From positions 673 to 52,795 of the forward strand of contig NZ_BLJO01000014.1 of the NCBI RefSeq assembly GCF_009932555.1: a stretch of DNA of 52,123 nucleotides, read 5' to 3'. Below the pieces are notes generated by a model. That model worked only from the letters and a program-made list of their open reading frames with translations, was not told the DNA's origin and made no database searches. A program made the translations under genes and the position numbers. Shown piece by piece: positions 6,988-41,479 of the stretch. How positions within the stretch are numbered: position 1 is the stretch's first letter; each line of letters begins with the position of its first letter. The stretch is from Steroidobacter agaridevorans (GTDB lineage Bacteria > Pseudomonadota > Gammaproteobacteria > Steroidobacterales > Steroidobacteraceae).

Positions 6988-8919
6988 ATGAACGCCCAGG
7001 TCGCCCGCTCCAATGACCCGCTCCGCATCGTCGCCGTCGGCCTGCATCGGCTGAAGGACCTGTTCCGCGACCTTGCCCCCACCTACGCGCAGGTCGCCCG
7101 CGTCGAGGTGCTCGACAGCGGCTTCGAGACCGCGGTCGACACTATTAATGAGCTGAGCCGCCAGCAGCCCATCGACGTGCTCGTGGCCGCGGGCTCCAAC
7201 GGCGCCTACCTTCGACAGCACATCGAGCTGCCAGTGGTGCTGGTTCGCGTCGGCGGCTTCGACATCCTGAGTGCGCTCGGTCGGGCTCGCAGCATCTCGT
7301 CGCGGATCGCGCTCGTGACGCACGGCGCCCTGCCTGTCGAGCTGGAACGGTTCAATGAGTTGTTCGGCTTGGGCATCGAGCAGCGGAGCTATCGAACCAC
7401 GGACGACGCGAGAAACTGTGTGCTCGAGCTGCGGGCGCGTGGCATCGAAGTCGTGGTCGCGCCTGGCTTGATCGCGGATCTCGCCGAAGCGGCCGGCATG
7501 GCCAGCGTCTTTCTCTACTCCGAAGACGCTGTCCGTGAGGCGCTCGACGATGCGGTCGAAATGGCTCGCTTGTCGCACATGGAAGGCGCCAAACGCGAAC
7601 GTTTGAATACGATTCTCGGCCAGCTGCGCGACGGCGTGGTCGCGGTCGATATGGACGAGCGGATCGAGATTTTGAATCCCGCCATGGCGCGGCTGTTGGA
7701 GCGGCCCGCTCCAGAGCTCATCGGGCTCAAGCTCAGCGATATCGCGCCGGAGCTTTCGCTCACACGCACCCTGCGTGAGCCACGTGCGGAGATCGACGAA
7801 TTGCAGAAGATTGGCGCGCGCGCGGTGCTCACGAGTCGGCTGCCGATCACAGAACAAGGCACGCAGACCGGCGCAGTGCTCACCTGCCAGGATCCCGAAT
7901 CGATTCAACGCGTCGATCGCGACCTGCGCGCCCGGCGTCACAAGCCGGCGGCGAATGTTCGCTATCGGCTGACGGATCTGGTCGGCACGACTCCAGGCAT
8001 CGTGCACACTCGATCGCTGGCGGCTCAGTACGCTCGCAGCGATGCGACCGTGCTGATCTTCGGCGAAAGCGGCACTGGCAAAGAACTGCTCGCTCAAGGC
8101 ATCCATGTCGCAAGCAAGCGGGCGAATCAGCCTTTCATCGCCATCAACTGCGGCGCCTTTCCGGAGTCGCTGCTGGAGAGCGAGCTGTTCGGTTACGAGG
8201 AAGGTGCTTTTACCGGCGCGCGCCGCGGCGGCAAGCTCGGCTTGTTCGAAGCCGCCCACACCGGCACGATCTTTCTGGACGAGATCGGCGAGATGCCGGT
8301 GTCTCTGCAAACCCGCCTGCTACGCGTGCTGCAGGAGAAAGAAATATTGCGAGTCGGCGCGATCGAACCGACTCGCGTCGACGTTCGCGTCATTGCCGCC
8401 ACCCATCGCGATCTGACGGAGCGCATCGTCACCGGCGACTTCCGACGGGACCTCTACTATCGGCTCAATATCCTGCGTTTGGAATTGCCTGGCCTGCGCG
8501 ATCGTCGGCAGGATCTGCCCGAGCTCGTGGCTCACCTGGGGCGCAAGATCGCCCTGCGAACAAGCATCGATATTACGAACGACCCGCGAGTACAGAAGCT
8601 GCTGGATGCGGCGTGGAACTACGAATGGCCCGGCAACGTGCGCGAGCTGGAGAACTTGCTGGAGCGAGTGGCGATGCTCGCGAGCCCGAACGACGCGACG
8701 CTCAGTGACGTGCAACTGCGGGAATTGATGCCCGAGATCTCAGCGCCGACACCGAGCAAAGTCGTCGCATCCATCGCCGCGCATCGCGCCGAATCCGAGA
8801 CCGAGTTGATTCGGCGCGTGCTCGAGGAGAGCGACGGCTCTTACGCCAAAGCGAGCGTGCGACTGGGGATCAGTCGCACGACGCTGTGGCGCAAGCTCAA
8901 AAAGCAATCCCCGTCCTAG
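6988..8919 (+). CDS. prpR: Propionate catabolism sigma-54 activator PrpR
   Basis: Transcription activator that senses 2-methylcitrate and drives the divergent prp operon with sigma-54 RNA polymerase. The 643-residue protein has an N-terminal PrpR sensor domain (LRIVAVGLHRLKDLFRDLAP onward, to about residue 195), a PAS-like linker (VVAVDMDERIEILNPAMARL), an AAA+ domain and a C-terminal Fis-type helix-turn-helix (SYAKASVRLGISRTTLWRKL). Walker A GESGTGKE begins at residue 359, and the sigma-54 contact loop GAFTGA is at 406, so it should be a true sigma-54 activator. I took the ATG at 6988; the frame is open upstream but runs through the activator-site cluster. Its last 23 bases overlap the convergent peptidase gene. 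Confidence 0.94.
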   Translation: MNAQVARSNDPLRIVAVGLHRLKDLFRDLAPTYAQVARVEVLDSGFETAVDTINELSRQQPIDVLVAAGSNGAYLRQHIELPVVLVRVGGFDILSALGRARSISSRIALVTHGALPVELERFNELFGLGIEQRSYRTTDDARNCVLELRARGIEVVVAPGLIADLAEAAGMASVFLYSEDAVREALDDAVEMARLSHMEGAKRERLNTILGQLRDGVVAVDMDERIEILNPAMARLLERPAPELIGLKLSDIAPELSLTRTLREPRAEIDELQKIGARAVLTSRLPITEQGTQTGAVLTCQDPESIQRVDRDLRARRHKPAANVRYRLTDLVGTTPGIVHTRSLAAQYARSDATVLIFGESGTGKELLAQGIHVASKRANQPFIAINCGAFPESLLESELFGYEEGAFTGARRGGKLGLFEAAHTGTIFLDEIGEMPVSLQTRLLRVLQEKEILRVGAIEPTRVDVRVIAATHRDLTERIVTGDFRRDLYYRLNILRLELPGLRDRRQDLPELVAHLGRKIALRTSIDITNDPRVQKLLDAAWNYEWPGNVRELENLLERVAMLASPNDATLSDVQLRELMPEISAPTPSKVVASIAAHRAESETELIRRVLEESDGSYAKASVRLGISRTTLWRKLKKQSPS

Positions 8920-29105: not shown

Positions 29106-30755
29106 TCACATCTGGCCGAAGCGCTCGAGCAACGACGCTTTGCACGTCGCATCGCTCGTCGGCACCGAGCCTGCCGAGAAGCCGGCCGGCGCCAGGCCGC
29201 TCCAGTTCTCCAGGTCGTCGCCGAAGTCGAAGCGATAGTCGAGGCCGGTGGCGTTGGTGCCGACCGCCTTGAGCAGCATCGAGCGCGCACCGCCGGCAAT
29301 GTTCAGACTCAGCGTCAACGTGTGATCGTCCAGCAGGCTCCAGTGACCGCCGACCAGCAGCGCACCGTTCGGATCGCTGCTGCTCGTCGTGTCGAAATCG
29401 CCGTCGTCGCCGCGATAGCGCACGCAGACTTTGATCTCGCCCGAGCGAGCGCCGTTGGCGCCGGTGACGAACAACAGCGCGTCGCCCTGCTCATCCGGCT
29501 TGTCGAGGCTGACCGAGAACGCAGTATTCACGAGGGCTGCGAATGCGGTCGCGGCTTCCGCCGGGATCGTCGCGCTGGCGCTGATCGAATTGGAGATCGG
29601 ATCGAAATCGAACTGCCTGTCGACCAGCTTGGCAACGTCAATGTCGCTCATACCCAGCCCGGTGAGATCCGTGCCCAGTCCGCCCGGCGTAATCTGCGCG
29701 CGAGCCCAATCGTAGAGATCGGGCAACTCGGGATCGTTCGGATTCTGCAACGCACGCTCGGCGGCGATTCGCTGCAGTCGCAGGATGGCGGCCAGTTCTT
29801 CCGGCGTCGCCGAGCCGTTCAACGCGGCGAGCAGCTCCTCGTTCAACGCGATGATGTCCGCCGTGTTCTGTAACAGCGGCTGGATCAAGGCTGGATTGGG
29901 GAGTTGGTAGCTGCCGGGCATGATTTCGCCGGGATTCACCGCAGTGAAGATTGCGCGGCGCGCGAGCTCTTCCAGCGCTTCGGCGGAACCGAAGGTGGAC
30001 TGGAAAATTCCCGAGCCGGTGTCGATACCCTCGATGAGCTGCGCCGACATGGCAATGTAGCTGTTGGCCCAGACACTGCTTTCAATGTCCTCGAAAGTCG
30101 CGGCCGGCAGGCTCAGTTCGGCAACTGTGCCAAACACCTGCGAAATGATCACTGCCGCCTGCGCGCGAGTCATCTGCCCGGCGTTGTCGAACGGATCGCT
30201 ATTCAAGCCCGTTGAATCCAGGATACCTGCCTTGATGAGCGCATCGAGCTTGGCCTGCGTGGCGCTCCCAGCATCCGCGACCATGCTGGTCTGCGGCGTC
30301 ACCAATCGCAAATCGTCGCGATCCAGATCGCTCGAGCGCAGGCTCAGCATGCCCTCGAACGGCAGCTGGGTGATCGTGTCGTAGCCGCCGGTCACGCGAA
30401 TGACCACTTCGGCGTCCGCAGCAATCCCGCCGCGCAGACAGAACTGAGTCAAGCCGCCAGCAGCACAATAGTCCGTGCCGGTACGATGGTTGTAAGAGAA
30501 ATAGCCGTCGCTGTCGGTCAGCGCCCGCGGCTCGAACGCATCGAGCTTGCCGTTCGCGTTCTGATCGACATACACCGTCGCGCCGGCCAGATAGCCGTCG
30601 ATCGCACGGGCATGAAACACTCGGCTGCTGGCGCCGCCGTCGCCGCTCGGACCGGTGCCGACGTCCTGCGTGCCTTTGCTGCCGCCACCGCACGCCGCCA
30701 GTCCGATCATGCTGCTGGCGACCGCACCCGCCAGAATCTGTTTGCGAATTTTCAT
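29106..30755 (-). CDS. Predicted surface lipoprotein of unknown function
   Basis: I do not recognise a specific family. The 549 residues begin with a lipoprotein signal (MKIRKQILAGAVASS, lipobox GLAAC, Cys22) and a glycine/serine linker. Residues about 45-90 contain an acidic calcium-type repeat in a carbohydrate-binding or prealbumin-like fold (VYVDQNANGKLDAFEPRALT, DSDGYF), as seen in many secreted proteins. The middle is mostly helical. The C-terminal part is beta-rich (GEIKVCVRYRGDDGDFDTTS, DDHTLTLSLNIAGGARS). The ATG at 30755 has GGAG eight bases upstream. It starts 22 bases after the end of an outer-membrane barrel gene on the same strand, suggesting the two work together. Confidence 0.75.
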   Translation of the reverse strand: MKIRKQILAGAVASSMIGLAACGGGSKGTQDVGTGPSGDGGASSRVFHARAIDGYLAGATVYVDQNANGKLDAFEPRALTDSDGYFSYNHRTGTDYCAAGGLTQFCLRGGIAADAEVVIRVTGGYDTITQLPFEGMLSLRSSDLDRDDLRLVTPQTSMVADAGSATQAKLDALIKAGILDSTGLNSDPFDNAGQMTRAQAAVIISQVFGTVAELSLPAATFEDIESSVWANSYIAMSAQLIEGIDTGSGIFQSTFGSAEALEELARRAIFTAVNPGEIMPGSYQLPNPALIQPLLQNTADIIALNEELLAALNGSATPEELAAILRLQRIAAERALQNPNDPELPDLYDWARAQITPGGLGTDLTGLGMSDIDVAKLVDRQFDFDPISNSISASATIPAEAATAFAALVNTAFSVSLDKPDEQGDALLFVTGANGARSGEIKVCVRYRGDDGDFDTTSSSDPNGALLVGGHWSLLDDHTLTLSLNIAGGARSMLLKAVGTNATGLDYRFDFGDDLENWSGLAPAGFSAGSVPTSDATCKASLLERFGQM

Positions 30756-30777
30756 TCTGATTATCTCCATGCCTTGA

Positions 30778-32073
30778 TCAATAGCTCATTTCGAAGCCGA
30801 GGTTGAACGCTGCCGTTCTCGGCACGGAGCTACCGTCGATATCCGTCGATTCGAGGCTGCACGACACGTCGAAGTGCACGGCGCCGAAGAAAGTGAAGCC
30901 CAGCGATGCGCTGCTCAGCTCGCTGCCGGCCAGGTTCTTGCGATAGCCGACGCGCAGGTCGGGCAGCCAGTTGGTCTGCGTCTTGTAGCCGAGCGCGACC
31001 TTCGCGTTCTGGTTGAGATCGCCGACCGGATCGTGCACGTCGTTGAGATCGACGCTGGCCGCGAGCGAGCCCCTGCCGGAGGCGAAGAACAATGCGCCTT
31101 CCACCGTCGCCAGGCGCTCCAGCGTCCAGGTCTCGTTCAGAGCGATGCGATTGCTGAAGTACGCAGCGCTGAAACAGTTGTACTGCGCGCTGCCGCTGAG
31201 CAGTTCGCAATTGGCGCCGATCGCGCCGTACTCGAAGTCCGGCTCGGTGAGATTCGCGAGCGTCACACCGACGCGGTAGTTGTCGGCGTCGTAGATCGCG
31301 CCGATATCCACCGTCACGTTGCTCGACTTGCGCTCGTTGGCGTCGTAGCTGTCTTCGAGCACGTCCTGGACGTCCTCGTCATCCTCGATGGATTCCAGCG
31401 CGACCACTTGCTTGCTGAGCTTGGCCTGCAGATAGCGCAGGCTGCCGCCGACGATCACGCGCCGTCCGGGCTGCTGCCAGACCGGCCGGCTGTAGCCGAG
31501 CGCGATCTCGTTCACCTGACCTGCTTTGACGTACGCCGCCGAAGCCGTCTCCACCTCTTCCGACACCGAGTTATAGGTCAGCGGAGCATCCAGCAATCCC
31601 AATCGCGCCTGCGCGCTGAGGTTGGCGTCGAGCGTGAACACGCCCAGGCTGCTGCGATAGAGCATCGGGAACAGCGGCACCTGCACGCCGCCGTGCACCT
31701 TCACGTAACCGTCGCGGCTCAAAGGATCGAGGATGGCGTTGAAGCGCTCGACCAGCGCATTGCCTTCGGACAGCGTCAGATCGTCCCGGTCCAGCGCGTC
31801 GGTGAGATCGTCGATCTCATCGGAGAAGTTGTCGACCGGCCCCACCTCCATGCCGATGCCGATCGAGCTCAGAATACCCATGCGGAACGACGCGTCCGGC
31901 GCAATGGCGAATTCGGAGCCGGCCGGATTGCGTGTCGCGTACAGCGAAGTCCACGCGCCAGAAGCGCCGTTGTCCGAAAGATTGGGCCCCGCATCGACAA
32001 ATCCCGGCGCCGCGAGGGACGCGCACGAGAACAGAGCCGCGCCAACTGCGGCTGCAATACCGACACTCTTCAC
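30778..32073 (-). CDS. Outer-membrane beta-barrel protein (TraF_2-like)
   Basis: Exported protein of 431 residues with a signal peptide (MKSVGIAAAVGAALFSCASLAA) and alternating strands that end in FNLGFEMSY, a terminal aromatic typical of outer-membrane barrels. The segment SLYATRNPAGSEFAIAPDAS and the strand-rich second half resemble proteins annotated as conjugal transfer TraF-like (PF13729) in environmental Proteobacteria, though no conjugation genes are near. The start is GTG at 32073 with GGAGG seven bases upstream. The lipoprotein gene follows within 25 bases. The function is unknown; a transport or surface-display role is a guess. Confidence 0.65.
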   Translation of the reverse strand: MKSVGIAAAVGAALFSCASLAAPGFVDAGPNLSDNGASGAWTSLYATRNPAGSEFAIAPDASFRMGILSSIGIGMEVGPVDNFSDEIDDLTDALDRDDLTLSEGNALVERFNAILDPLSRDGYVKVHGGVQVPLFPMLYRSSLGVFTLDANLSAQARLGLLDAPLTYNSVSEEVETASAAYVKAGQVNEIALGYSRPVWQQPGRRVIVGGSLRYLQAKLSKQVVALESIEDDEDVQDVLEDSYDANERKSSNVTVDIGAIYDADNYRVGVTLANLTEPDFEYGAIGANCELLSGSAQYNCFSAAYFSNRIALNETWTLERLATVEGALFFASGRGSLAASVDLNDVHDPVGDLNQNAKVALGYKTQTNWLPDLRVGYRKNLAGSELSSASLGFTFFGAVHFDVSCSLESTDIDGSSVPRTAAFNLGFEMSY

Positions 32074-32171: not shown

Positions 32172-33479
32172 CTAGACGCCAGTCACGCTGTCCCGGCGCG
32201 CTTGCGGAAACTCCATCGATTGCGACTCAGGGAATTCCGTAACGCGCCTTCCGATGACGAGCAGCAGCACCGCGGCCAGCCCCGCTACGCCACTCATCAG
32301 CACGAAGAACCCGCTCGCGCCCATCGAGGTCCAGAGCGAACCAAGCACACCCGCCAGCAGGTTTCCACCAAACGAGCCGAGAAACCACAGCGCCATCACC
32401 GTCGCCGCAAAACGTCGCGGCGCCAGCTGGCCGAACAATGCGAGGCCCGTCGGCAGGATGAATAGCTCGCCCGCTGTCAGCAGAAGCACAAACAGCGCTG
32501 CCCACAGCCAGCTCACTGCACTGGCCTGCACGCTGAGCACGAGCGCCAACATGAGATAGGCCGAAGCCACGAGCGCCGCGCCTATCGCCATCTTGACGAG
32601 TGGCGATGGATCGCGCCCGCGCCGGGCAGCTCGAGTCCACGCGATCACCAATACTGGCGTCAGCAAGAATACAAACATCGGGTTGAGCGATTGAAACCAG
32701 GTCATCGGAATCGTCAACTCCGCCGAGATGCGTCGATCCACGCCCTGGTCAGCCCAGATCGCAAAGGTGTTGCCGATCTGTTCGTACGCACCTCGAAACA
32801 CCACGACGACCAAAGCAATGCTCACGAGCAGAACGATCTGGCGCGTCACGTCACCCGATCGCTCTGAGACGCTCTGGGCGGCCGCGCGTGGCGTATCCGG
32901 AGGCAGATAACGAGCACCGCCCACATAGATGAGCAAACCAAGCAGCATGCCTATGCCCGCCGCACCGAATCCGTAGTGCCAGCCGTAGAGCTCGCCCAAG
33001 GTGCCGCAGATCAGTGGCGCGAAGAACGCGCCAAGATTGACGCCTGCGTAATAAAGGTTGTACGCCGGTCCGCGGCGCGGATCCTGCGCCGAGTACAGGC
33101 CATGAATCTGACTGGGCAGATTGGGCAGGAACAATCCATTGCCGAGTGCGATCGTGGCCAGCGCCGGCAGAAACAATGCCTCCGAGGCCATCATGAAGTG
33201 CCCCACCGACATGATCGCGCCACCGGCGATCACAGCGCGCCGAGTGCCCAGCCACCGATCAGCGATGTATCCGCCGGCGATCGGAGTGAGATACGCGCAT
33301 GCCGCGTACAGCCCATAAATCAGCGACGCATTCTCCTGCCCGATCAACAGCTGTTTGGTCATGTAGTAGACCAGCAGCGTGCGCATGCCGAAGAAGGAGA
33401 ACTTCTCCCACATCTCGGTCAGAAACAGGATCGCGAGTCCTCGCGGCTGACCGAACCATGTGGCCTGAGGCGTGCTCAT
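32172..33479 (-). CDS. POT/PTR2-family peptide:H+ symporter
   Basis: Inner-membrane proton-coupled di/tripeptide transporter of the major facilitator superfamily, 435 residues with about 12-14 membrane helices. The POT motif ExxERF appears as EMWEKF (E22, E25, K26), with lysine in place of arginine. The second signature is around GGYIADRWLGTRRAVIAGG, and YNLYYAGVNLGAFFAPLICG matches the PTR2 motif. The ATG at 33479 overlaps the epimerase stop (ATGA). It is the last gene of the receptor-hydrolase-epimerase-transporter operon and would bring peptides from the periplasm into the cell. Confidence 0.9.
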   Translation of the reverse strand: MSTPQATWFGQPRGLAILFLTEMWEKFSFFGMRTLLVYYMTKQLLIGQENASLIYGLYAACAYLTPIAGGYIADRWLGTRRAVIAGGAIMSVGHFMMASEALFLPALATIALGNGLFLPNLPSQIHGLYSAQDPRRGPAYNLYYAGVNLGAFFAPLICGTLGELYGWHYGFGAAGIGMLLGLLIYVGGARYLPPDTPRAAAQSVSERSGDVTRQIVLLVSIALVVVVFRGAYEQIGNTFAIWADQGVDRRISAELTIPMTWFQSLNPMFVFLLTPVLVIAWTRAARRGRDPSPLVKMAIGAALVASAYLMLALVLSVQASAVSWLWAALFVLLLTAGELFILPTGLALFGQLAPRRFAATVMALWFLGSFGGNLLAGVLGSLWTSMGASGFFVLMSGVAGLAAVLLLVIGRRVTEFPESQSMEFPQARRDSVTGV

Positions 33480-34474
33480 GCGCGCGTCACAACCGGGTTG
33501 CCCCATAGCGATTCCGGACACGAGATGTGTCCATCTTCATAGCTCACGCCGGGCGAGCGATCGTTGGCCAGCACCAGCGGGCCATCGAGATCGACCAGAT
33601 CGCACAACTGCGCCAGCAGGAACCCCGGCGCCATGGCGAGCGAGCTGCCGCCCATGTTGCCCACCATGACTTTGAAGCCCAGCACCTTCGCGACGCGCGC
33701 CATCGCCAGCGCTTCGGTCAGGCCGCCGCATTTGTCGAGCTTGATGTTGATCGCATCGAAGCGGCCCACACAGCGCGGCAGATCCGCCAGGCACAACACA
33801 CTCTCGTCGGCGGCGATGGGAATCGGCGATTGCAGACCGGGCAAGCCGTCATCCAAGGCCGGCGGCACCGGCTGTTCGATCAAACGAACGTCGGCCGCGA
33901 TGAATGCCGGCATCACCTGCCGCAGCGAGTCCATGCCGAAGCCCTGGTTGGCATCGACTCCCAACCACACATCGGGCCGCACCGCGCGAACCGCCCTCAC
34001 CCGCTCGGCATCGATCGGCTCACCGGTCAATTTGAGTTTCAGAGCACGCGCCTGCGGATAGGTGCGCGCGAGTTGCGCCATTGCATCGGGATCATCCGCT
34101 CCCAGCGTATACGTTGTGATTTTGGGGACCGGCGCCTGCAGCCCGGCGAGCTGCCACGCAGGCTTGCCTGTGCGCTTCGCCTCGAGATCCCAGAACGCAC
34201 AATCGAGCGCGTTCCGAGCACCGCCCGGCAACAGCAGATGAGCGAGCATGCTTCGGTCCGCGCCCGCGGACAGCACCGGCCGGATCGCGTCGATCTGAGC
34301 GATCATCCGCTGCGGCGATTCGGCTCGATAGTAGATGCCCGCCGCTTCGCCTCGGCCCACATGCTCTCCCTCCCGCAGCTCGACCACGATCACCGGCACT
34401 TCGATGAAGGTGTAGCCCGTGATGCGAACCGGCGCCCGCAGCGGCAGGCGCTCCACTCGAACATCGATTTCCAT
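33476..34474 (-). CDS. Dipeptide epimerase (enolase superfamily, L-Ala-D/L-Glu epimerase type)
   Basis: Racemises the C-terminal residue of a dipeptide in the cytoplasm. The 332 residues show the muconate-lactonising-enzyme subgroup layout: capping domain (LPLRAPVRITGYTFIEVPVI), then the barrel with KxK catalytic lysines K146/K148 (ALKLKLTG), metal ligands D174 (GVDANQG), E200 (LIEQPV) and D223 (AADES), and the second-face lysine in INIKLDKCGG. The family includes YcjG of E. coli, which recycles murein peptide L-Ala-D-Glu, but specificity for other dipeptides is common. It lies 12 bases after a beta-lactamase-fold hydrolase gene and overlaps the POT transporter gene. Confidence 0.92.
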   Translation of the reverse strand: MEIDVRVERLPLRAPVRITGYTFIEVPVIVVELREGEHVGRGEAAGIYYRAESPQRMIAQIDAIRPVLSAGADRSMLAHLLLPGGARNALDCAFWDLEAKRTGKPAWQLAGLQAPVPKITTYTLGADDPDAMAQLARTYPQARALKLKLTGEPIDAERVRAVRAVRPDVWLGVDANQGFGMDSLRQVMPAFIAADVRLIEQPVPPALDDGLPGLQSPIPIAADESVLCLADLPRCVGRFDAINIKLDKCGGLTEALAMARVAKVLGFKVMVGNMGGSSLAMAPGFLLAQLCDLVDLDGPLVLANDRSPGVSYEDGHISCPESLWGNPVVTRA

Positions 34475-34486
34475 GCAGACTCTCGA

Positions 34487-36415
34487 CTAATAGTTCACGC
34501 CGGAAGCGATCACGTTGTAGGCGACGGCCATCCACAGGCTCACATTCATCGCCAACACCATCGCGAGCGCCCATACCTTCGCGTACCAGCGCCGCTCACC
34601 GCGAAGCACACGTTTCGCGTGCCAGAGAGCGGCGATCACTCCGCCCAGCAGCGTGACAATGGAAAGAACGCGCAGCGTCCACAGCCAGGTATCGAACTTC
34701 TCCGACAGATTCGACAGGTCGGACATCATCGTGCCGATGGTCGCGATCCACGCCAGCCACATAGCGACAGTTGTAATGGCAGCGATTCGCAACCACCGAT
34801 AGGCCTTCGCGTCTGCTGCGGAGCGCGTGTCCACCATGCCGTAGCGTCGACGCATGAGTGCACCGAGGGGCCATGCGACGGCTGTGGCAACCATCGCGAT
34901 CAGTGAAGCGAGAAATGCAGGCGTCAACCAGCTCGCTCTCGACGGCGCAGGCCGCTCGAACATCATGAACGGCGAGACTTCGTCGAACGAAAATCGTGCG
35001 ACCGCTCCATCTCGCACTTCCGCCGACAGCAATCGCGGGCTGCCGTCGAGCTGCCACACGAACGGCTGCACTTCACGCCAGCGTCGTGGCTGGCCCGAGC
35101 CATTGCGAACCATCGACACGCCGATCGTGCCGTCGCGATAGTCGATCACGTCGATAGCGCCGACCAGATTGAGCAGGCTCATGAAACTGGACTCGGAGCG
35201 CCGCGAGTTGACGTAGTGTCCGGCCATGAGTTGCGCATGCTCCCCCGCCGTCTGCTCATCGACCCCGGGGCCGGCGCTCCACTCCGGGACCGGCAGATAT
35301 CGATTCGCAAACTCCTCGAACAGCTCGATACGCATGTCGATCGCGGCCATGCCCTTGCCCATGCTGTTGCACGCGACGAACATGCCGACGCCGTCATCGA
35401 TGTAGAGCCGCAAATCGCTGTGGAACCACTGCGTGTCGCCGCCGTGTGCGATCACGCGCCGGCCTTTGTAATTCGCCTCCCAGAAGCCGAGGAGCATGCG
35501 ATCCACGCGAGGCAGAATGGTCAGCGGCGTTCCGTGCATCAGCTGAGCCGTTTCCGCTCGCAGAATCTCGGCCTCGCCCAGCCTTCCTTGATTCAGATGC
35601 GCCAGCATGAATTTCGCGATGTCGGTCGCAGGCGCCGACAGAGCGCCCGCGGGCGCGAGGCCGATGATCTCGAACGGACGCGCAGGCCCGGACGCCGCGG
35701 CATATCCTTTCGCCATCCTCGGTTGCAATTCACTCGGCAGCGGCTGACGAAATGTCGAGCTCGTCATGCCGAGCGGACCGAGCACATGCGTGTCCATGTA
35801 ATCTTCCAACGGCACGCCGGAGATTCGTTGCACGATGTAGCCGGCCAGCGCCGTCGCGTAGTTTGAATACGCCGGCGTCGTCCCAGGCGCGAAGATCCGC
35901 TCTGGCGTCCAGCGCTTCAGCAGCGTTTCAAACTTCGGCGCCGTCGCGGGATCGTATGCCACCGCGTTCTTCAACTGCTCTTCAAATCCCGGCGTGTGCG
36001 TCATCAGGTTGCGCACAGTGATGGGCTGGCCATCGAGCGGCGGGATCCGGAAATCGAGATACGAGTTCACGTCGGCATCGAGGGATACCTGGCCACGCTC
36101 GACCAGCTGCATCAGTGCCGTCCACGTGAACAACTTCGAGATCGAGCCCACGCGCATCAATGTACGCTCGGGGTCCATGGGCTCGTGTGCCGCGAGGTCG
36201 GCATAGCCGAAGCCCCGCTGCGTCAGGATGCTGCCATCTTTAACCACGACGACGACCGCACCCGCGATGTCTCCTTGCTGAAGCGCATACGGCACGAACC
36301 CATCGAGCCAGGCATCGACGTCGGGTTTCGTCAGCTCGGGCGCCGGATCGGCGAGTACCGTAGACGCGCATAGCAGGGCCGCCGCGAGGGCGGCCCTCTT
36401 CAACCGTGCGAGCAC
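34487..36415 (-). CDS. Beta-lactamase-fold serine hydrolase with C-terminal membrane domain
   Basis: Predicted periplasmic penicillin-binding-protein-like hydrolase (class C beta-lactamase/D-aminopeptidase/esterase group). The 642 residues begin with a signal peptide (LKRAALAAALLCASTVLA). The active site has SxxK at S91-I-S-K94, YxN at Y183-S-N185 and HGGDT in the position of KTG. The last 150 residues carry about four membrane helices (FLASLIAMVATAVAWPLGAL, IAAITTVAMWLAWIATIG, WTLRVLSIVTLLGGVIAALW, WALAMVLAMNVSLWMAVAY). The GTG start at 36415 is two bases after the TonB receptor stop. Context (receptor, epimerase, peptide transporter) suggests a peptide or D-amino-acid peptide substrate; an antibiotic-degrading role is less likely. 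Confidence 0.85.
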   Translation of the reverse strand: MLARLKRAALAAALLCASTVLADPAPELTKPDVDAWLDGFVPYALQQGDIAGAVVVVVKDGSILTQRGFGYADLAAHEPMDPERTLMRVGSISKLFTWTALMQLVERGQVSLDADVNSYLDFRIPPLDGQPITVRNLMTHTPGFEEQLKNAVAYDPATAPKFETLLKRWTPERIFAPGTTPAYSNYATALAGYIVQRISGVPLEDYMDTHVLGPLGMTSSTFRQPLPSELQPRMAKGYAAASGPARPFEIIGLAPAGALSAPATDIAKFMLAHLNQGRLGEAEILRAETAQLMHGTPLTILPRVDRMLLGFWEANYKGRRVIAHGGDTQWFHSDLRLYIDDGVGMFVACNSMGKGMAAIDMRIELFEEFANRYLPVPEWSAGPGVDEQTAGEHAQLMAGHYVNSRRSESSFMSLLNLVGAIDVIDYRDGTIGVSMVRNGSGQPRRWREVQPFVWQLDGSPRLLSAEVRDGAVARFSFDEVSPFMMFERPAPSRASWLTPAFLASLIAMVATAVAWPLGALMRRRYGMVDTRSAADAKAYRWLRIAAITTVAMWLAWIATIGTMMSDLSNLSEKFDTWLWTLRVLSIVTLLGGVIAALWHAKRVLRGERRWYAKVWALAMVLAMNVSLWMAVAYNVIASGVNY

Positions 36416-36417
36416 GA

Positions 36418-38988
36418 TCAGAAGCTCACATCGACGCCGAGACCGTAAGTCCTTGGCTGCAGGATGCTGACGTTCGCGGGACCGCCAAACAAGGACGTGC
36501 CCGTGATCGCCGACAGCTGACCGCGCTCGTTAGTGACGTTCTTGCAGTAGAGCTGGAAGCGCGTGCCGCCCAACGTGAGGCCGGTGCGAAGATCGACCAC
36601 CGTGTAGTCCGGCAGCTCGTACTGTGGCATGCCGGTGCTCAGATCGAAGTTGGCGTGTCTATCGTCGACGTACCGTACGGTGCCGCCGGCGAACGCGTCG
36701 TAGCTGGCCAGGCCAAAGCGATACTCAGCCGACAGCGCCGCCGTCACTTCCGGTGTGTCCGGCAACGACTCGCCTTTCACACCACCAAGATCCGGGGCGT
36801 CCGCCGCGAGCTCCGCATTCGTATAGCCAAACGTACCCATCACGGTCAGATCAGGCACCGGCAGCGCCGTCAGCGTCATCTCCACGCCTTCGCTTTGCGC
36901 TTTCGCGGCGTTGGCAATCACGCCCAGACCGTTGCGGATCGCGGTGATCTGCATGTCTTTCCAATCGACGTGATACACGGCGATGTCCGCGTTGAAGCGG
37001 CGGTCGGCACTGCCGAACTTGACGCCTGCCTCGTAGCTGGTGAGCCGGTCGTCATCGAACGTCGGATCGGCCATGGGCTCGCCGTTCAGATTGTTCACCA
37101 CCGCGTTCGGGCCGCCGGGGCGATAACCCGTGGCGAAGCGCAGATACGGCATGAAGTTGTCGTTCACGCGATAACGAACGTTCGCAAGATAGGTCGGCAC
37201 GCTGTCGCTGTCCCGACGCACCGGCACCACACCCACCAACAATCCCGAACCGAGCTGTGCTTGCTGCTGCTCGTTATGGGCATAGCGAACGCCGCCTGTC
37301 ACATCGAGCTTGTCCGTGACATGGAAAGTGATGTTGCCGAACGCAGCGTATTCCTCATACTTGCTCGGGATCGTCAGGGTGAGGAAGTTCACGGGCGACG
37401 GCGCGCCGGTCGGGTCGAACGGCAGCAGTTGCTGGAACTGCTCGCTGTCCTCCTTGGTGTAGAAGCCGCCAATCAACCAGTCGACGACCGGGCCGGTAGC
37501 AGACAAGCGCAGCTCCTGTGTGAACTTGTCCGTATCGGCATTGCGAGCCAGGCCGATGGCGCTGAAGGCGCTGGGGCCGCCGAACGCCGGAACGTACAAC
37601 GCCGAGAAGTCGGTGATGGCATCGCTGCGCACCGTCTGATAGCTGCTGATCGAGGTCAGGGTGGCGAAGTCGAACGAGTACTTCACCGTGGCGCTGGCCA
37701 GACGGAAGCTCTGCTCGAAGGTTTCTACCATTGCGCGCCGCTGATCGAGCTCGCCGTCGATGGCGACACCGGTGGTGCGATTGAAGTCGGCTGCGATCGA
37801 GCCGTCGCGGTCGATATCTTGCGCAAATGCCGTGACCCGCACCGACAAACGATCGGTCGGCGCAAACAGGAAATCGACGCGACCGCCGTACATGTCCGCC
37901 GCATCCACGTCTTCGTCATTGAGCGCGACATTGTCGACGTAGCCGCCGTTGTGGGTATAGAAGCCGCTGGCACGCAGCGCTGCCTTGTCATCGGCAAGCG
38001 GAATGTTGACCGCGCTCGCTGCGTCGTAACCCACACCGCCATCCTGCGTGCTCGAAATATTGGCTCGCACGGTGCCGCTGTACGCCGTGGTGTTCGGAAC
38101 ATTCGTCACGTACTTCACCAGGCCGCCCATCGTGCTGGCTCCGTACAAGGTTCCTTGCGGGCCGCGCAGAATCTCGACACGGCTCATGTCGAACAAGCCG
38201 ACATCCAGCGCCAGCTGCGCACTCGATGTGAACGCGGTGCTCGAACCGTAAGGCACGTCATCCACATAGATACCGACGGTCGGCGAGACGTTGTAGCCGC
38301 TTGTGATGCCGCGCAGATTGACTTGGGTCTGACCCACGCCGCTGCTGGTGAAATTCAAGCTCGGTACCGTGTTGGCAAAGTCGACGAACTGCGTGGCGCC
38401 GAGCGCCTGCAGGTCGCGGCTCGTCATCGCCGTGATCGACATGGGAATGTCCCGCAGACGTTCCTCGACCTTCTGCGCCGTGACGATGATTTCTTCGAGC
38501 GCCGCCGCTTCGTTCGACGGAGCCTTGCCCGGCGGGCTGTTTTCAGCCGGTATGCCGCCACTCACGACGGGCGGTTCCGCCTGCGCGAGCTGCAACGACT
38601 GGGGTGAGACGTCGGGCGGCAGCGCCAGGCTCTCTCGCGCCGTGGTCACAGCACCCGACTTCTGTGTCAGCTCTTGCGTCGTGACGACAATATATGCGCG
38701 ATCGTTGAGCGGCCGATACGTCAGGCCCGTGGGAGCAAGCAACTCTCGCAGCGCCTGCTCGGCGGAGTAGTTGCCGTTGAGCGGGCCCACCATCGCGTCG
38801 CCCTTCACGGCATCGCTGAAGCGAACGATCTGCAAGCCGGTTTGTTGGGCGAGATCCTTGAGGGCCACATCCAACGTTTGTCGGGGAATGTGCAGGTTAT
38901 GCCGCAAAATGGCGGCGTTGGACTCCGCCGCCAGAGAAACACTCACGATCCCGACACAAGCAAGCGCCGATGCCACGCCGATCCGCAT
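36418..38988 (-). CDS. TonB-dependent outer-membrane receptor with STN signalling domain
   Basis: Ligand-gated outer-membrane transporter of the FecA signalling type, 856 residues. After a signal peptide (IGVASALACVGIVSVSLAAE) comes an STN domain (about residues 25-105: RQTLDVALKDLAQQTGLQIV to LTYRPLNDRAYIVVTT), which in FecA contacts the anti-sigma factor. The plug domain follows (EEIIVTAQKVEERLRDIPMS, then ILRGPQGTLYGASTMGGLVK), then a 22-strand barrel ending in RTYGLGVDVSF with terminal phenylalanine. The ATG at 38988 follows GGGGAG. Its promoter region has the same 31-base element as the sigma gene. Downstream genes suggest a peptide-like ligand rather than iron. First gene of a four-gene operon. 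Confidence 0.92.
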   Translation of the reverse strand: MRIGVASALACVGIVSVSLAAESNAAILRHNLHIPRQTLDVALKDLAQQTGLQIVRFSDAVKGDAMVGPLNGNYSAEQALRELLAPTGLTYRPLNDRAYIVVTTQELTQKSGAVTTARESLALPPDVSPQSLQLAQAEPPVVSGGIPAENSPPGKAPSNEAAALEEIIVTAQKVEERLRDIPMSITAMTSRDLQALGATQFVDFANTVPSLNFTSSGVGQTQVNLRGITSGYNVSPTVGIYVDDVPYGSSTAFTSSAQLALDVGLFDMSRVEILRGPQGTLYGASTMGGLVKYVTNVPNTTAYSGTVRANISSTQDGGVGYDAASAVNIPLADDKAALRASGFYTHNGGYVDNVALNDEDVDAADMYGGRVDFLFAPTDRLSVRVTAFAQDIDRDGSIAADFNRTTGVAIDGELDQRRAMVETFEQSFRLASATVKYSFDFATLTSISSYQTVRSDAITDFSALYVPAFGGPSAFSAIGLARNADTDKFTQELRLSATGPVVDWLIGGFYTKEDSEQFQQLLPFDPTGAPSPVNFLTLTIPSKYEEYAAFGNITFHVTDKLDVTGGVRYAHNEQQQAQLGSGLLVGVVPVRRDSDSVPTYLANVRYRVNDNFMPYLRFATGYRPGGPNAVVNNLNGEPMADPTFDDDRLTSYEAGVKFGSADRRFNADIAVYHVDWKDMQITAIRNGLGVIANAAKAQSEGVEMTLTALPVPDLTVMGTFGYTNAELAADAPDLGGVKGESLPDTPEVTAALSAEYRFGLASYDAFAGGTVRYVDDRHANFDLSTGMPQYELPDYTVVDLRTGLTLGGTRFQLYCKNVTNERGQLSAITGTSLFGGPANVSILQPRTYGLGVDVSF

Positions 38989-39034
38989 GATTTTTCTCCC
39001 CGCCCCTGTTAAGCATGAATGTATGGGCAGGCAG

Positions 39035-39065
39035 AAGACTGGCCGAGGGTTCGATTCCTCCCCCC
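39035..39065 (-). promoter_or_regulatory. Putative ECF-sigma promoter of the TonB receptor operon
   Basis: On the minus strand: GGGGGGAGGA, 14 bases, CAGTCTT. Both blocks and the spacing are identical in front of the sigma gene (40685-40715), while only part of the bases between them is conserved. It starts 18 bases after the fecR-type stop; predicted transcription start near 39028. Confidence 0.65.
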
Positions 39066-39083
39066 GTCGTGCGCACGGAAATT

Positions 39084-40124
39084 TCATCGAGCGTGCGTGC
39101 CGATGACGATCCCTGCATCGGTCCGAGTGATGCTGATCTCGGCGCCGCTCTCACGGATGAACGCCAGCAAGGTCTCCGAATCGGTGGCCTCGAACACGCC
39201 GCTGACCTTGCGAGCGGCAAGCTGCGCATCGTCGATGCTCAGCTGCACACGATTGTAGCGATTGAACTCCTGGATCACGTCGGCCAGCGTGTCGTTTTCG
39301 AACACGAGCTGACCTTGCGCCCAGGCGAGCGCGCGCGTGGTGTCGACGACTCGCACCGGAGCCACGGCGCCGGAATCCTGCACCGTCACTTGCTGTCCGG
39401 CCGTTAGATAGATCTCAGCGCCATCGGCTTGCGCCTTGGGAGAATCGGTCACCGCCACCTTCCCTTCGGCGACAGTCACAACCACGCCTCGCGCTCCGCT
39501 CTCCACCCCGAAGGCGGTGCCGACTGCGCGCACCGATGTTTGATCGGCGCTGACCAGGAATGGCCGCTGCGGATTCTTGGCCACGCGAAACAGCGCGCGC
39601 CCGTGTTCGAGCTCGACTCGACGCAGCTTGTCCTCGAACTTCACTCGCAATCGGGTCTCGGGCTCCAGCTGTACGACCGTGCCGTCTTCGAGCATGACCT
39701 GCCGTCGCTCGGCCAGCTTCGACTCGAGCACATCGCCGCGAAGGCTCAACGCGAACCACGCACCGAGGATTGCGATCAGGCAGCTGCTTGCGGCGATTGC
39801 CCAGGTGCGGACTCGCGAGCGAGCTTCGCGATCGACGTTCGATTCCTCGGGCGCACGCTCGTCGACATCGCAAAGGTGCACGATATTGTCGGGCGCCTCG
39901 GCGCCACCGACCTCCACCTCATTCCAGAGCTTGAATCGCTCCAGCGAATCGTGAACATGCGCGACGCGCAGAAATTCCGCGACATGCAGCGGCGACTCAC
40001 GCAACCACTCGGTGAACAGCTCACGCTCGGACTGCGAGACTTCCGTCGGCTTCTGGATGCTGAGCCGATTCCACCACTGGGTTGCCTCGTGGGTGGCGCG
40101 GGCGCGCCGGTCATTCGTGTCCAT
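39084..40124 (-). CDS. FecR-family anti-sigma factor
   Basis: Inner-membrane regulator that holds the ECF sigma factor and receives the signal from the TonB receptor. The 346 residues have an N-terminal cytoplasmic domain (ATHEATQWWNRLSIQKPTEV, typical DUF4880), one membrane helix (WAIAASSCLIAILGAWFALS, about residues 90-108), a periplasmic FecR domain (VMLEDGTVVQLEPETRLRV to VTVAEGKVAVTD) and a C-terminal STN-like domain (FENDTLADVIQEFNRYNRVQ). The start overlaps the sigma gene's 3' end by 14 bases, so the two are co-translated. The receptor promoter element begins right after its stop. Confidence 0.92.
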   Translation of the reverse strand: MDTNDRRARATHEATQWWNRLSIQKPTEVSQSERELFTEWLRESPLHVAEFLRVAHVHDSLERFKLWNEVEVGGAEAPDNIVHLCDVDERAPEESNVDREARSRVRTWAIAASSCLIAILGAWFALSLRGDVLESKLAERRQVMLEDGTVVQLEPETRLRVKFEDKLRRVELEHGRALFRVAKNPQRPFLVSADQTSVRAVGTAFGVESGARGVVVTVAEGKVAVTDSPKAQADGAEIYLTAGQQVTVQDSGAVAPVRVVDTTRALAWAQGQLVFENDTLADVIQEFNRYNRVQLSIDDAQLAARKVSGVFEATDSETLLAFIRESGAEISITRTDAGIVIGTHAR

Positions 40125-40647
40125 ACTGGAGCGCTCTGATCAATTCGTCGTTGAGCTCGCGTCGCAATTTGCCGTAGCTCTTTTCGAAGTCACGCCGCAC
40201 GATCCGAAAAGAAACATTGAGCCGGATTGCGATCTCCGCCTGGCTCAGGCCCTCCTCGAAATACAGCTTCAATATGGCGCGCTCGCGCGGTGACAACGTG
40301 TTGAGCGCGCGCAGGATCTCCCGCTGCGCGGCCTCGGAATCCAACGCCTGCTCCGGACTGTCTTCGGCCGCCAGCGATGCGAGCCAATGGGGCTCGTGGA
40401 GCAGCCGGTTGCTGGAGCGGATGCTCCACTCCGCAGCGACGTTCGACGCCATCTTGAACAGGTACGCCTGCGGGTGTTCGACGATCTGAGCCGCGTCATA
40501 ACGCAGCAGGCGCAGGAACACCTCCTGCGCCACATCGTCGAAATCGGCGGGACGCACGGCGTTGCGGCTCGCCAGGAATCGACGCAAGGGGGTCCGCCAG
40601 CGGCGAAACCACTCCACCAGTCGATTCTGTGGGTCAAGGTTGGACAT
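40111..40647 (-). CDS. ECF sigma factor, FecI type
   Basis: Alternative sigma factor of 178 residues with regions 2 and 4 only. Region 2 includes DFDDVAQEVFLRLLRYDAAQ and AYLFKMASNVAAEWSIRSSN; region 4 includes LNTLSPRERAILKLYFEEGL and the helix-turn-helix SQAEIAIRLNVSFRIVRRDF. The partner anti-sigma and receptor genes follow on the same strand in the usual fecIRA order. The 31-base GGGGGGAGGA/CAGTCTT element upstream suggests it transcribes its own gene. The signal is presumably the ligand of the STN receptor. Confidence 0.93.
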   Translation of the reverse strand: MSNLDPQNRLVEWFRRWRTPLRRFLASRNAVRPADFDDVAQEVFLRLLRYDAAQIVEHPQAYLFKMASNVAAEWSIRSSNRLLHEPHWLASLAAEDSPEQALDSEAAQREILRALNTLSPRERAILKLYFEEGLSQAEIAIRLNVSFRIVRRDFEKSYGKLRRELNDELIRALQYGHE

Positions 40648-40684
40648 AACTCGTGCGCGCCCGGGGCACAGTTCCGGTGCGTTT

Positions 40685-40715
40685 AAGACTGGGCGACAGT
40701 CTAAATCCTCCCCCC
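40685..40715 (-). promoter_or_regulatory. Putative autoregulated ECF-sigma promoter of the sigma/anti-sigma genes
   Basis: Second copy of GGGGGGAGGA, 14 bases, CAGTCTT. It ends 38 bases upstream of the sigma factor's ATG, placing the start point near 40678. See the copy at 39035-39065. Confidence 0.65.
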
Positions 40716-40792: not shown

Positions 40793-41479
40793 ATGAAGCC
40801 ACTCCATCCCTCCCTGGCCCTGCTGCTCTCGGCGACCGCTGTTTGCGGACTCGTCGCCTGCCAGACCACGAAGCAGTCTCCCATCGATGAGCTGTCAACC
40901 CAGGAAGGGCTGCAGCGTGCCGAGGTCAAAGGCGTGGATGCGGTCTATCGGCGGCCCGGCGCGAACCTGACTCCGTACAACAAGCTGCTGGTGCGGCCGG
41001 TCTACGTCGAGTTCAGCAAGAACTGGAAGCCGGATCAGAATTCGGATCTGTACCGGATGAACGAGCCGGATCGCGAAAAAATCCGCCAGGAGCTGGCGCA
41101 ACTGTTCGCCGAGGTCATGGTCAAGGAGCTGCAGACCGAGGGCGGTTATCAGCTCGTCACCGAGCCGGCGGCCGACGTTCTCGAAGTGCGGCCCGCCATC
41201 GTCAATCTCTATATCACCGCGCCCGACGTCTCCATGCAGACCGCCGGACGCGTGCGCACTTTTACTGCCGACTCCGGCGAGATGACGTTGATCGCGGAGC
41301 TGCGCGACTCAGTCACCGGCACATTGCTGGCCAGAGCCTTCGATCGACGCGAAGATGACGGCATGATGTGGCAATGGACCACTTCGGTGACCAACAGCGC
41401 CGACGCACGACGCATCATTGCCAGCTGGGCCGACACGCTGAGGAACGCGCTCGACACAGCGCGTGGTAAACAAACCTGA
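40793..41479 (+). CDS. DUF3313-like lipoprotein
   Basis: Exported lipoprotein of 228 residues, function unknown. The signal peptide ends in the lipobox GLVAC (Cys23). The body matches the DUF3313 pattern: PYNKLLVRPVYVEFSKNW, a helix with REKIRQELAQLFAEVMVKEL, a strand DVLEVRPAIVNLYITAPDV, and EMTLIAELRDSVTGTLLARA followed by a last helix ending in SWADTLRNALDTA. No ribosome site precedes the ATG, but a TATAAC box lies 7-12 bases upstream, so the transcript could be leaderless. Converges with the phospholipase D gene with one base between the stops. Confidence 0.75.
   Translation: MKPLHPSLALLLSATAVCGLVACQTTKQSPIDELSTQEGLQRAEVKGVDAVYRRPGANLTPYNKLLVRPVYVEFSKNWKPDQNSDLYRMNEPDREKIRQELAQLFAEVMVKELQTEGGYQLVTEPAADVLEVRPAIVNLYITAPDVSMQTAGRVRTFTADSGEMTLIAELRDSVTGTLLARAFDRREDDGMMWQWTTSVTNSADARRIIASWADTLRNALDTARGKQT

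Follow-up and report, generated by a model that had tools for sequence, protein, structure and literature searches.

A putative paired, system-specific promoter element before a FecI-like sigma gene and its TonB-dependent receptor gene: a candidate lineage-specific, self-activating and insulated variant of FecI signalling in Steroidobacteraceae

The gene of a FecI-like ECF sigma factor in Steroidobacter agaridevorans and that of the TonB-dependent receptor encoded next to it are each preceded by a copy of one 31-base element, GGGGGGAGGA-N14-CAGTCTT. In the window, by which we mean the whole 52,123-nt stretch of DNA analysed, exact search finds this motif twice and no more, at 40685-40715 before the sigma-fecR operon and at 39035-39065 before the receptor operon, both on the minus strand and with 0 mismatches; the earlier note had placed two copies at exactly these coordinates and had seen no third. 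We consider it likely (probability about 0.85) that the product of the sigma gene (40647-40111) recognizes both elements as -35/-10 promoters and from them drives its own operon and that of the receptor, the -35 box being specific to this system. Transcription starts at the two elements, their dependence on the sigma factor and autoregulation in the cell are what we infer from the sequence comparisons laid out below, which predict that the sigma factor of the window is autoregulated. Taken as a whole, the system looks like a lineage-specific, self-activating and insulated variant of FecI signalling.

The gene assignments of the earlier note hold up. The sigma gene (40111..40647, minus strand) encodes a 178-aa protein with the Pfam domains Sigma70_r2 and Sigma70_r4, both over cut-off. 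Its domain content, limited to regions 2 and 4, places the protein among the ECF (group IV) sigma factors, as does the NCBIfam model sigma70-ECF (79.7 bits, cut-off 42.9); it falls far below the cut-offs of the E. coli FecI equivalog models NF041727 (40.8 bits, cut-off 260) and NF007232 (39.7 bits, cut-off 185). Directly after the sigma gene and overlapping its end lies the gene of a 346-aa FecR-type sigma regulator (39084..40124, minus strand; Pfam FecR 75.4 bits, cut-off 24), and next comes that of the TonB-dependent receptor, which has an N-terminal STN signalling domain (36418..38988, minus strand; Pfam STN 41.5 bits with a cut-off of 28.4, Plug 66.3 bits and barrel 134 bits, all over cut-off). 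The receptor operon probably includes the gene of a serine hydrolase of the beta-lactamase/AmpH fold (34487..36415, minus strand; Pfam Beta-lactamase 207.9 bits), a gene that follows the receptor in Peristeroidobacter agariperforans too. Possible further members are the genes of an enolase-superfamily epimerase/racemase (33476..34474, minus strand; Pfam MR_MLE; DgcA model 368.3 bits, below the cut-off of 400) and of a POT-family peptide:proton symporter (32172..33521, minus strand; Pfam PTR2; TIGR00924 293.2 bits, cut-off 130.2). In P. agariperforans the genes flanking this segment (32172-34474) lie next to each other, and neither the epimerase nor the symporter gene has a counterpart between them; an insertion in the window lineage or a loss in P. 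agariperforans may be the cause, and the absence of both genes there weakens the murein-peptide function that the pair might otherwise suggest. Further along the minus strand (29106-32073) are the genes of an outer-membrane-type protein (Pfam TraF_2 170.5 bits) and then of a 554-aa protein without Pfam match, both of which P. agariperforans retains (98% and 84%, respectively). On the other flank, a gene for a DUF3313 protein (40793-41479, plus strand; Pfam 72.8 bits) is oriented divergently to the sigma gene, with 77 bases between it and the sigma copy of the element, and P. agariperforans has this gene in the corresponding position (95%).

Between the element and the start codon that follows it there are 37 bases for the sigma gene and 46 for the receptor gene. 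As the earlier note had described, identical end blocks enclose a variable middle, whose 14 bases agree at 7/14 positions between the copies; the edges it gave to these blocks are inexact, the first G differing in both P. agariperforans copies. A two-copy identity profile over 20 systems (see below) delimits the boxes, in window terms, as GGGGAGG and GTCTT. This puts the putative -35 box of the sigma copy at about 40707-40713 (GGGGAGG) and its -10 box at about 40684-40689 (GTCTTA), and those of the receptor copy at about 39057-39063 (GGGGAGG) and 39034-39039 (GTCTTC), all on the minus strand; the spacing of the two boxes is ECF-like. Read on the plus strand, the receptor copy is GGTTCGATTCC and resembles a T-loop; a tRNA-related origin was rejected, there being no tRNA gene in the window.

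Shuffling the window 100 times gave a mean of 0.00 copies of GGGGGGAGGA-N14-CAGTCTT. The genome to which the window belongs (G000; 8.0 Mb in 26 contigs, 97% complete, with the window on contig 14) holds the two window copies and no other exact match, and a reversed control pattern has 0, so the motif is not scattered over the genome. Relaxing the search to at most 3 mismatches brings the number of sites in G000 to 8: besides the pair in the window there are 6, each of which departs from the motif at exactly 3 positions. The control pattern yields 4, and these numbers provide no evidence of a third target.

Sigma factors resembling that of the window at E 1e-20 were present in 18/200 genomes of the family and in 1/369 genomes of the class, the latter being the window's own. 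The nearest named relatives are those of P. agariperforans (98%; genome G011, orthologue L067), a Steroidobacter MAG (about 83-84%; G008, L070) and Steroidobacter gossypii (56%; G010, L068), and a further orthologue, with a 65% identical sigma factor, is found in G007 (L063). Both copies of the element are kept at L067 and L063. In P. agariperforans the blocks are the same except for the first G, with five changes across the two spacers, and in G007 both copies read GGGGGAAG...CCCGGTCTTA, altered together. The other two genomes retain the sigma copy: at L070 the receptor copy is absent, and at L068 no receptor gene could be identified immediately downstream of fecR. The reading of the elements as ECF promoters, put forward in the earlier note, gains support from this retention, and its expectation of conservation before orthologous genes holds for the sigma genes and, with changes common to both copies, for the receptor genes of two genomes, the exceptions being the receptor side in the MAG and in S. 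gossypii. A second system of G008 (L044, sigma 53%) carries GGGGGAAA...CCGTCTT twice, and a paralogue within G000 (L043, 57%; G000:C1:42000-51500, with sigma near 7600, fecR at 7095-6040 and receptor at 6034-3542, minus strand) has a pair of its own, GTCCCG...ACGGTCTTA twice, with a different -35 box. Comparison of L067, L063, L044 and L043 thus indicates that the copies within one system agree and that the first block mostly differs between systems. One of the 3-mismatch sites, C1:46439, was considered as the promoter of the L043 paralogue and rejected, as it falls inside that paralogue's receptor gene.

Pairing was then scored across the family with no motif assumed, as the best two blocks (8 and 9 bases, at an equal spacing of 11-15) common to the region upstream of a sigma gene and to that following its fecR gene, all mismatched combinations of such regions serving as control. 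Of 121 FecI-like systems chosen by similarity to the window sigma factor, 104 from 14 genomes had enough sequence after fecR to be tested and 17 were dropped; more than half of those tested (54/104) come from a single genome, G023, and 18/104 from G000. A score of at least 15/17 was reached by 26/104 systems, compared to 2.24% of mismatched pairs. The paired systems make up 26/57 of those with a receptor gene directly downstream and 0/47 of those without an adjacent receptor, both this threshold and the control by receptor presence having been fixed before any output. With limits on position, chosen after the first result had been seen, the counts are 21/57 and 0/47, against 27/3192 mismatched receptor-bearing pairs. 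Among the 5/26 pairs outside these limits, four are chance-like (L180, L196, L210, L212) and one looks real (L216); 31/57 receptor-bearing systems are below the pair threshold. The in-position pairs are spread over G023 (14/28), G000 (3/12), G008 (1/4), G011 (1/2), G007 (1/1) and G026 (1/1), with none among the receptor-bearing systems tested in G002 (0/3), G005 (0/2), G010 (0/2), G426 (0/1) and G525 (0/1). Near-relatives are included (the window and L067; L136 and L138), so that the pairs are not all independent.

An earlier pair test on 44 systems had returned 12 with p<=0.05 and a promoter-like pair and one, L052, with p<=0.05 but a pair unlike a promoter, and had found no pair for L070, L068 and L057. 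The pattern GGGG-N20..22-GTC[TC][TA], which was drawn from loci already seen, matches 15/55 sigma upstream regions (0.46 expected) and 10/44 after-fecR regions (0.36 expected); on 17 loci fetched once an earlier form of the pattern was in use, the counts are 5/17 and 3/16, respectively. The outgroup consisted of 30 loci drawn from many FecR matches in 274 class genomes, found with models built from Steroidobacteraceae. Sixteen of the 30 were scorable, 15 from outside the window's genome and one (L229) from within it; those from outside include 11 receptor-bearing systems, a single one of which reached 15, with A-rich blocks that are not promoter-like, and 0.8% of mismatched pairs scored at least 15.

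When 20 in-position pairs are anchored on the -10 box, identity between copies is concentrated in two islands, at -25 to -19 and at -1 to +3 relative to the -10 TC. The search procedure is itself responsible for part of this concentration, but not for the low identity seen in spacers and flanks. Over 21 pairs the copies agree at 57/172 positions of the spacer interior (0.33) and at 98/315 and 100/315 positions of the two flanks (0.31 and 0.32), values that argue against recent duplication. It is true that short two-copy repeats are often due to chance and that the spacers of the window still agree at half of their positions, as might be expected of functionless DNA that had recently been duplicated. 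Set against this are the zero expectation in shuffles, the low spacer and flank identity over 21 systems, the fact that none of the 47 systems lacking an adjacent receptor has a pair, and the preservation of all but the first G of the blocks in P. agariperforans; we regard an origin of the repeat in chance or duplication as extremely improbable. The -10 box varies little, being usually GTCTT(A) or CTCTA (exceptions include L140, L207 and L216). The -35 box mostly begins with GG and differs between most systems, so that this half of the element is mostly private to each system, a feature absent from the earlier note.

The boxes of 24 hand-picked pairs, three of them scoring 14 and L067 being omitted as a near-duplicate, were compared with the sigma factors encoded beside them; the receptor copies of L044, L062 and L207 are anchored a few bases off, and the correlations use sigma copies only. 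For 21 pairs, similarity of the -35 box correlates with identity of the region 4 helix (r 0.39, 0/5000 permutations), also when region 2 is taken into account (partial r 0.27, 3/5000), and the reverse relationship, region 2 given the helix, is weak (partial 0.10, 633/5000). Upon addition of the three weaker pairs (n=24) the partial r is 0.15 for the helix (113/5000) and 0.22 for region 2 (39/5000), region 2 then explaining as much of the -35 similarity as the helix does. Between the -10 box and region 2, no significant correlation beyond the helix was found (616/5000). Individual cases include L136 and L138, both of G023, with GGGGCCACC in common and helices that are almost identical; likewise, L179 (G000) and L216 (G023) carry GGCGGGTT or a close variant together with STVEKH/STIEKH helices. 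In the counter-case of L144 and L199, nearly one helix goes with different -35 boxes. The helix correlation is thus suggestive, not proof, of region 4 reading the -35 box.

A two-box site of fixed spacing before two genes could be bound by a separate transcription factor, and this alternative draws some support from the weakening of the helix correlation with 24 pairs. We nevertheless hold it to be unlikely, given that the element sits at a promoter position, that its second box (GTCTTA/CTCTA) and its spacing resemble those of ECF promoters, and that its variation follows the neighbouring sigma factor across many systems. The elements might also be promoters of another sigma factor of the cell, such as a paralogous ECF sigma, in which case there would be no autoregulation: G000 has 27 sequences matching the window sigma factor at E <=0.001, and the sequences are compatible with cross-recognition. 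Yet the paralogues have different -35 boxes and G000 contains no further instance of the motif, which makes this second possibility very unlikely.

If the elements are indeed promoters of the adjacent sigma factor, the system may work as follows. In the E. coli Fec system, the signal passes from the STN domain of the receptor to FecR and from there to the sigma factor. By analogy, FecR would keep the window sigma factor inactive or poised without ligand, and the substrate-bound receptor would signal through its STN domain and FecR to render the sigma factor active. The active sigma factor would then start transcription at both copies, that is, of the sigma-fecR operon, in a positive feedback, and of the receptor operon, the outcome being a response that amplifies itself and stays limited to one receptor. 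The recognition helix of region 4 probably reads the system-specific -35 box, and the -10 box would vary little among related sigma factors. We propose that a -35 box specific to each system, and read by region 4, allows paralogous systems to function in one genome without cross-talk; such insulation is what we infer from the divergence of the boxes. By extension, we lean somewhat toward the view that the FecI-type systems of Steroidobacteraceae form a large set of self-activating and mutually insulated channels, each with a private -35 box, read by region 4, before its sigma and receptor genes.

The components of the window system are ordinary; what is surprising is the predicted self-activation and the private -35 boxes. 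With E. coli FecI-FecR-FecA it has in common the gene set of sigma factor, FecR and STN-bearing TonB receptor and, by prediction, a sigma-dependent receptor promoter. According to the sections consulted of one review, neither fecIR of E. coli nor hasI is autoregulated, and both fec promoters are under the control of Fur (PMC9249621). In the window, by contrast, the sigma and receptor genes have one common promoter element, and a crude scan with a consensus sequence revealed no Fur box above chance upstream of either gene, the best match (10/19) being equalled in 100/200 shuffles for the sigma gene and in 127/200 for the receptor gene. Another FecIRA-like system in a gammaproteobacterium, HemI-HemR-HemAD of Stenotrophomonas maltophilia, is, according to the available portion of the report on it, a single Fur-repressed operon that was tested and is not autoregulated (PMC12772443). 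In the same portion its authors present the system as atypical and offer the truncated receptor as the reason for the lack of autoregulation (PMC12772443); since they treat non-autoregulation as atypical, opinion in print on the autoregulation of FecI-like sigma factors is not uniform. Autoregulated ECF sigma factors of the RpoE type are similar in having a sigma-read promoter before the sigma operon and before the targets, as predicted in the window, and differ in that the regulator of the window system is a FecR acting together with receptor signalling.

Excerpts of a second review give AAC in the -35 box as a hallmark of ECF promoters, add that later work no longer uses this promoter hallmark to define ECFs, and name FecI-like sigma factors as an exception to ECF autoregulation (PMC8103513). 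Measured against this partial description, the window boxes GGGGAGG and AGTCTT have the GTC of the -10 box and are without AAC and without CGT. The gene neighbourhood fits ECF243, the FecI-like group, in which the old groups ECF05-ECF09 have been placed according to the sections consulted of the first review (PMC9249621), the comparison being with the review's description. Titles and abstract openings searched contained no description of paired private promoters; single autoregulated FecI-like sigma factors may be in print. The excerpts of the second review also note that ECF target promoters are predicted largely with the help of autoregulated sigma factors (PMC8103513), and FecI-like sigma factors are the largest ECF group by the account in the first (PMC9249621). 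In a lineage where each FecI-like sigma factor has one private element before both its own gene and that of its receptor, target promoters would be recognizable by inspection; the sigma-DNA code of the group would become directly testable, and naturally orthogonal parts would be on offer.

The genome that contributes most systems, G023, is from the same family and measures 4.0 Mb. Its 150 matches to the window sigma factor at E <=0.001 (150/179 candidates scored) amount to a very large expansion, considering how small the genome is; its loci include L062, L136-L138 and L183-L228, and the 54 tested systems have a FecR gene after the sigma gene. If the proposal is true, dozens of naturally orthogonal pairs of sigma factor and promoter would be available in G023, and the recognition code could be deduced from them.

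Within G000, a larger regulon was sought with two looser patterns, and neither rose above its control: GGGGA-N15..20-GTCTTA has 5 matches against 7 and GGGG-N19-CVGTCTW 10 against 12. The gene context of 8 loci, taken from the 3-mismatch sites and the matches to GGGGA-N15..20-GTCTTA, offered no convincing target. Position 1501-1531 of L088 (G000:C9:203385-203415) has a site in the same register, GGGGATGGATTCAGCGAATGAGCCGGTCTTA, which could be due to chance; a short-chain dehydrogenase-like gene starts about 170 bases further on, a divergent receptor-like gene adjoins the site, and another FecI-like sigma factor is encoded 5 kb away.
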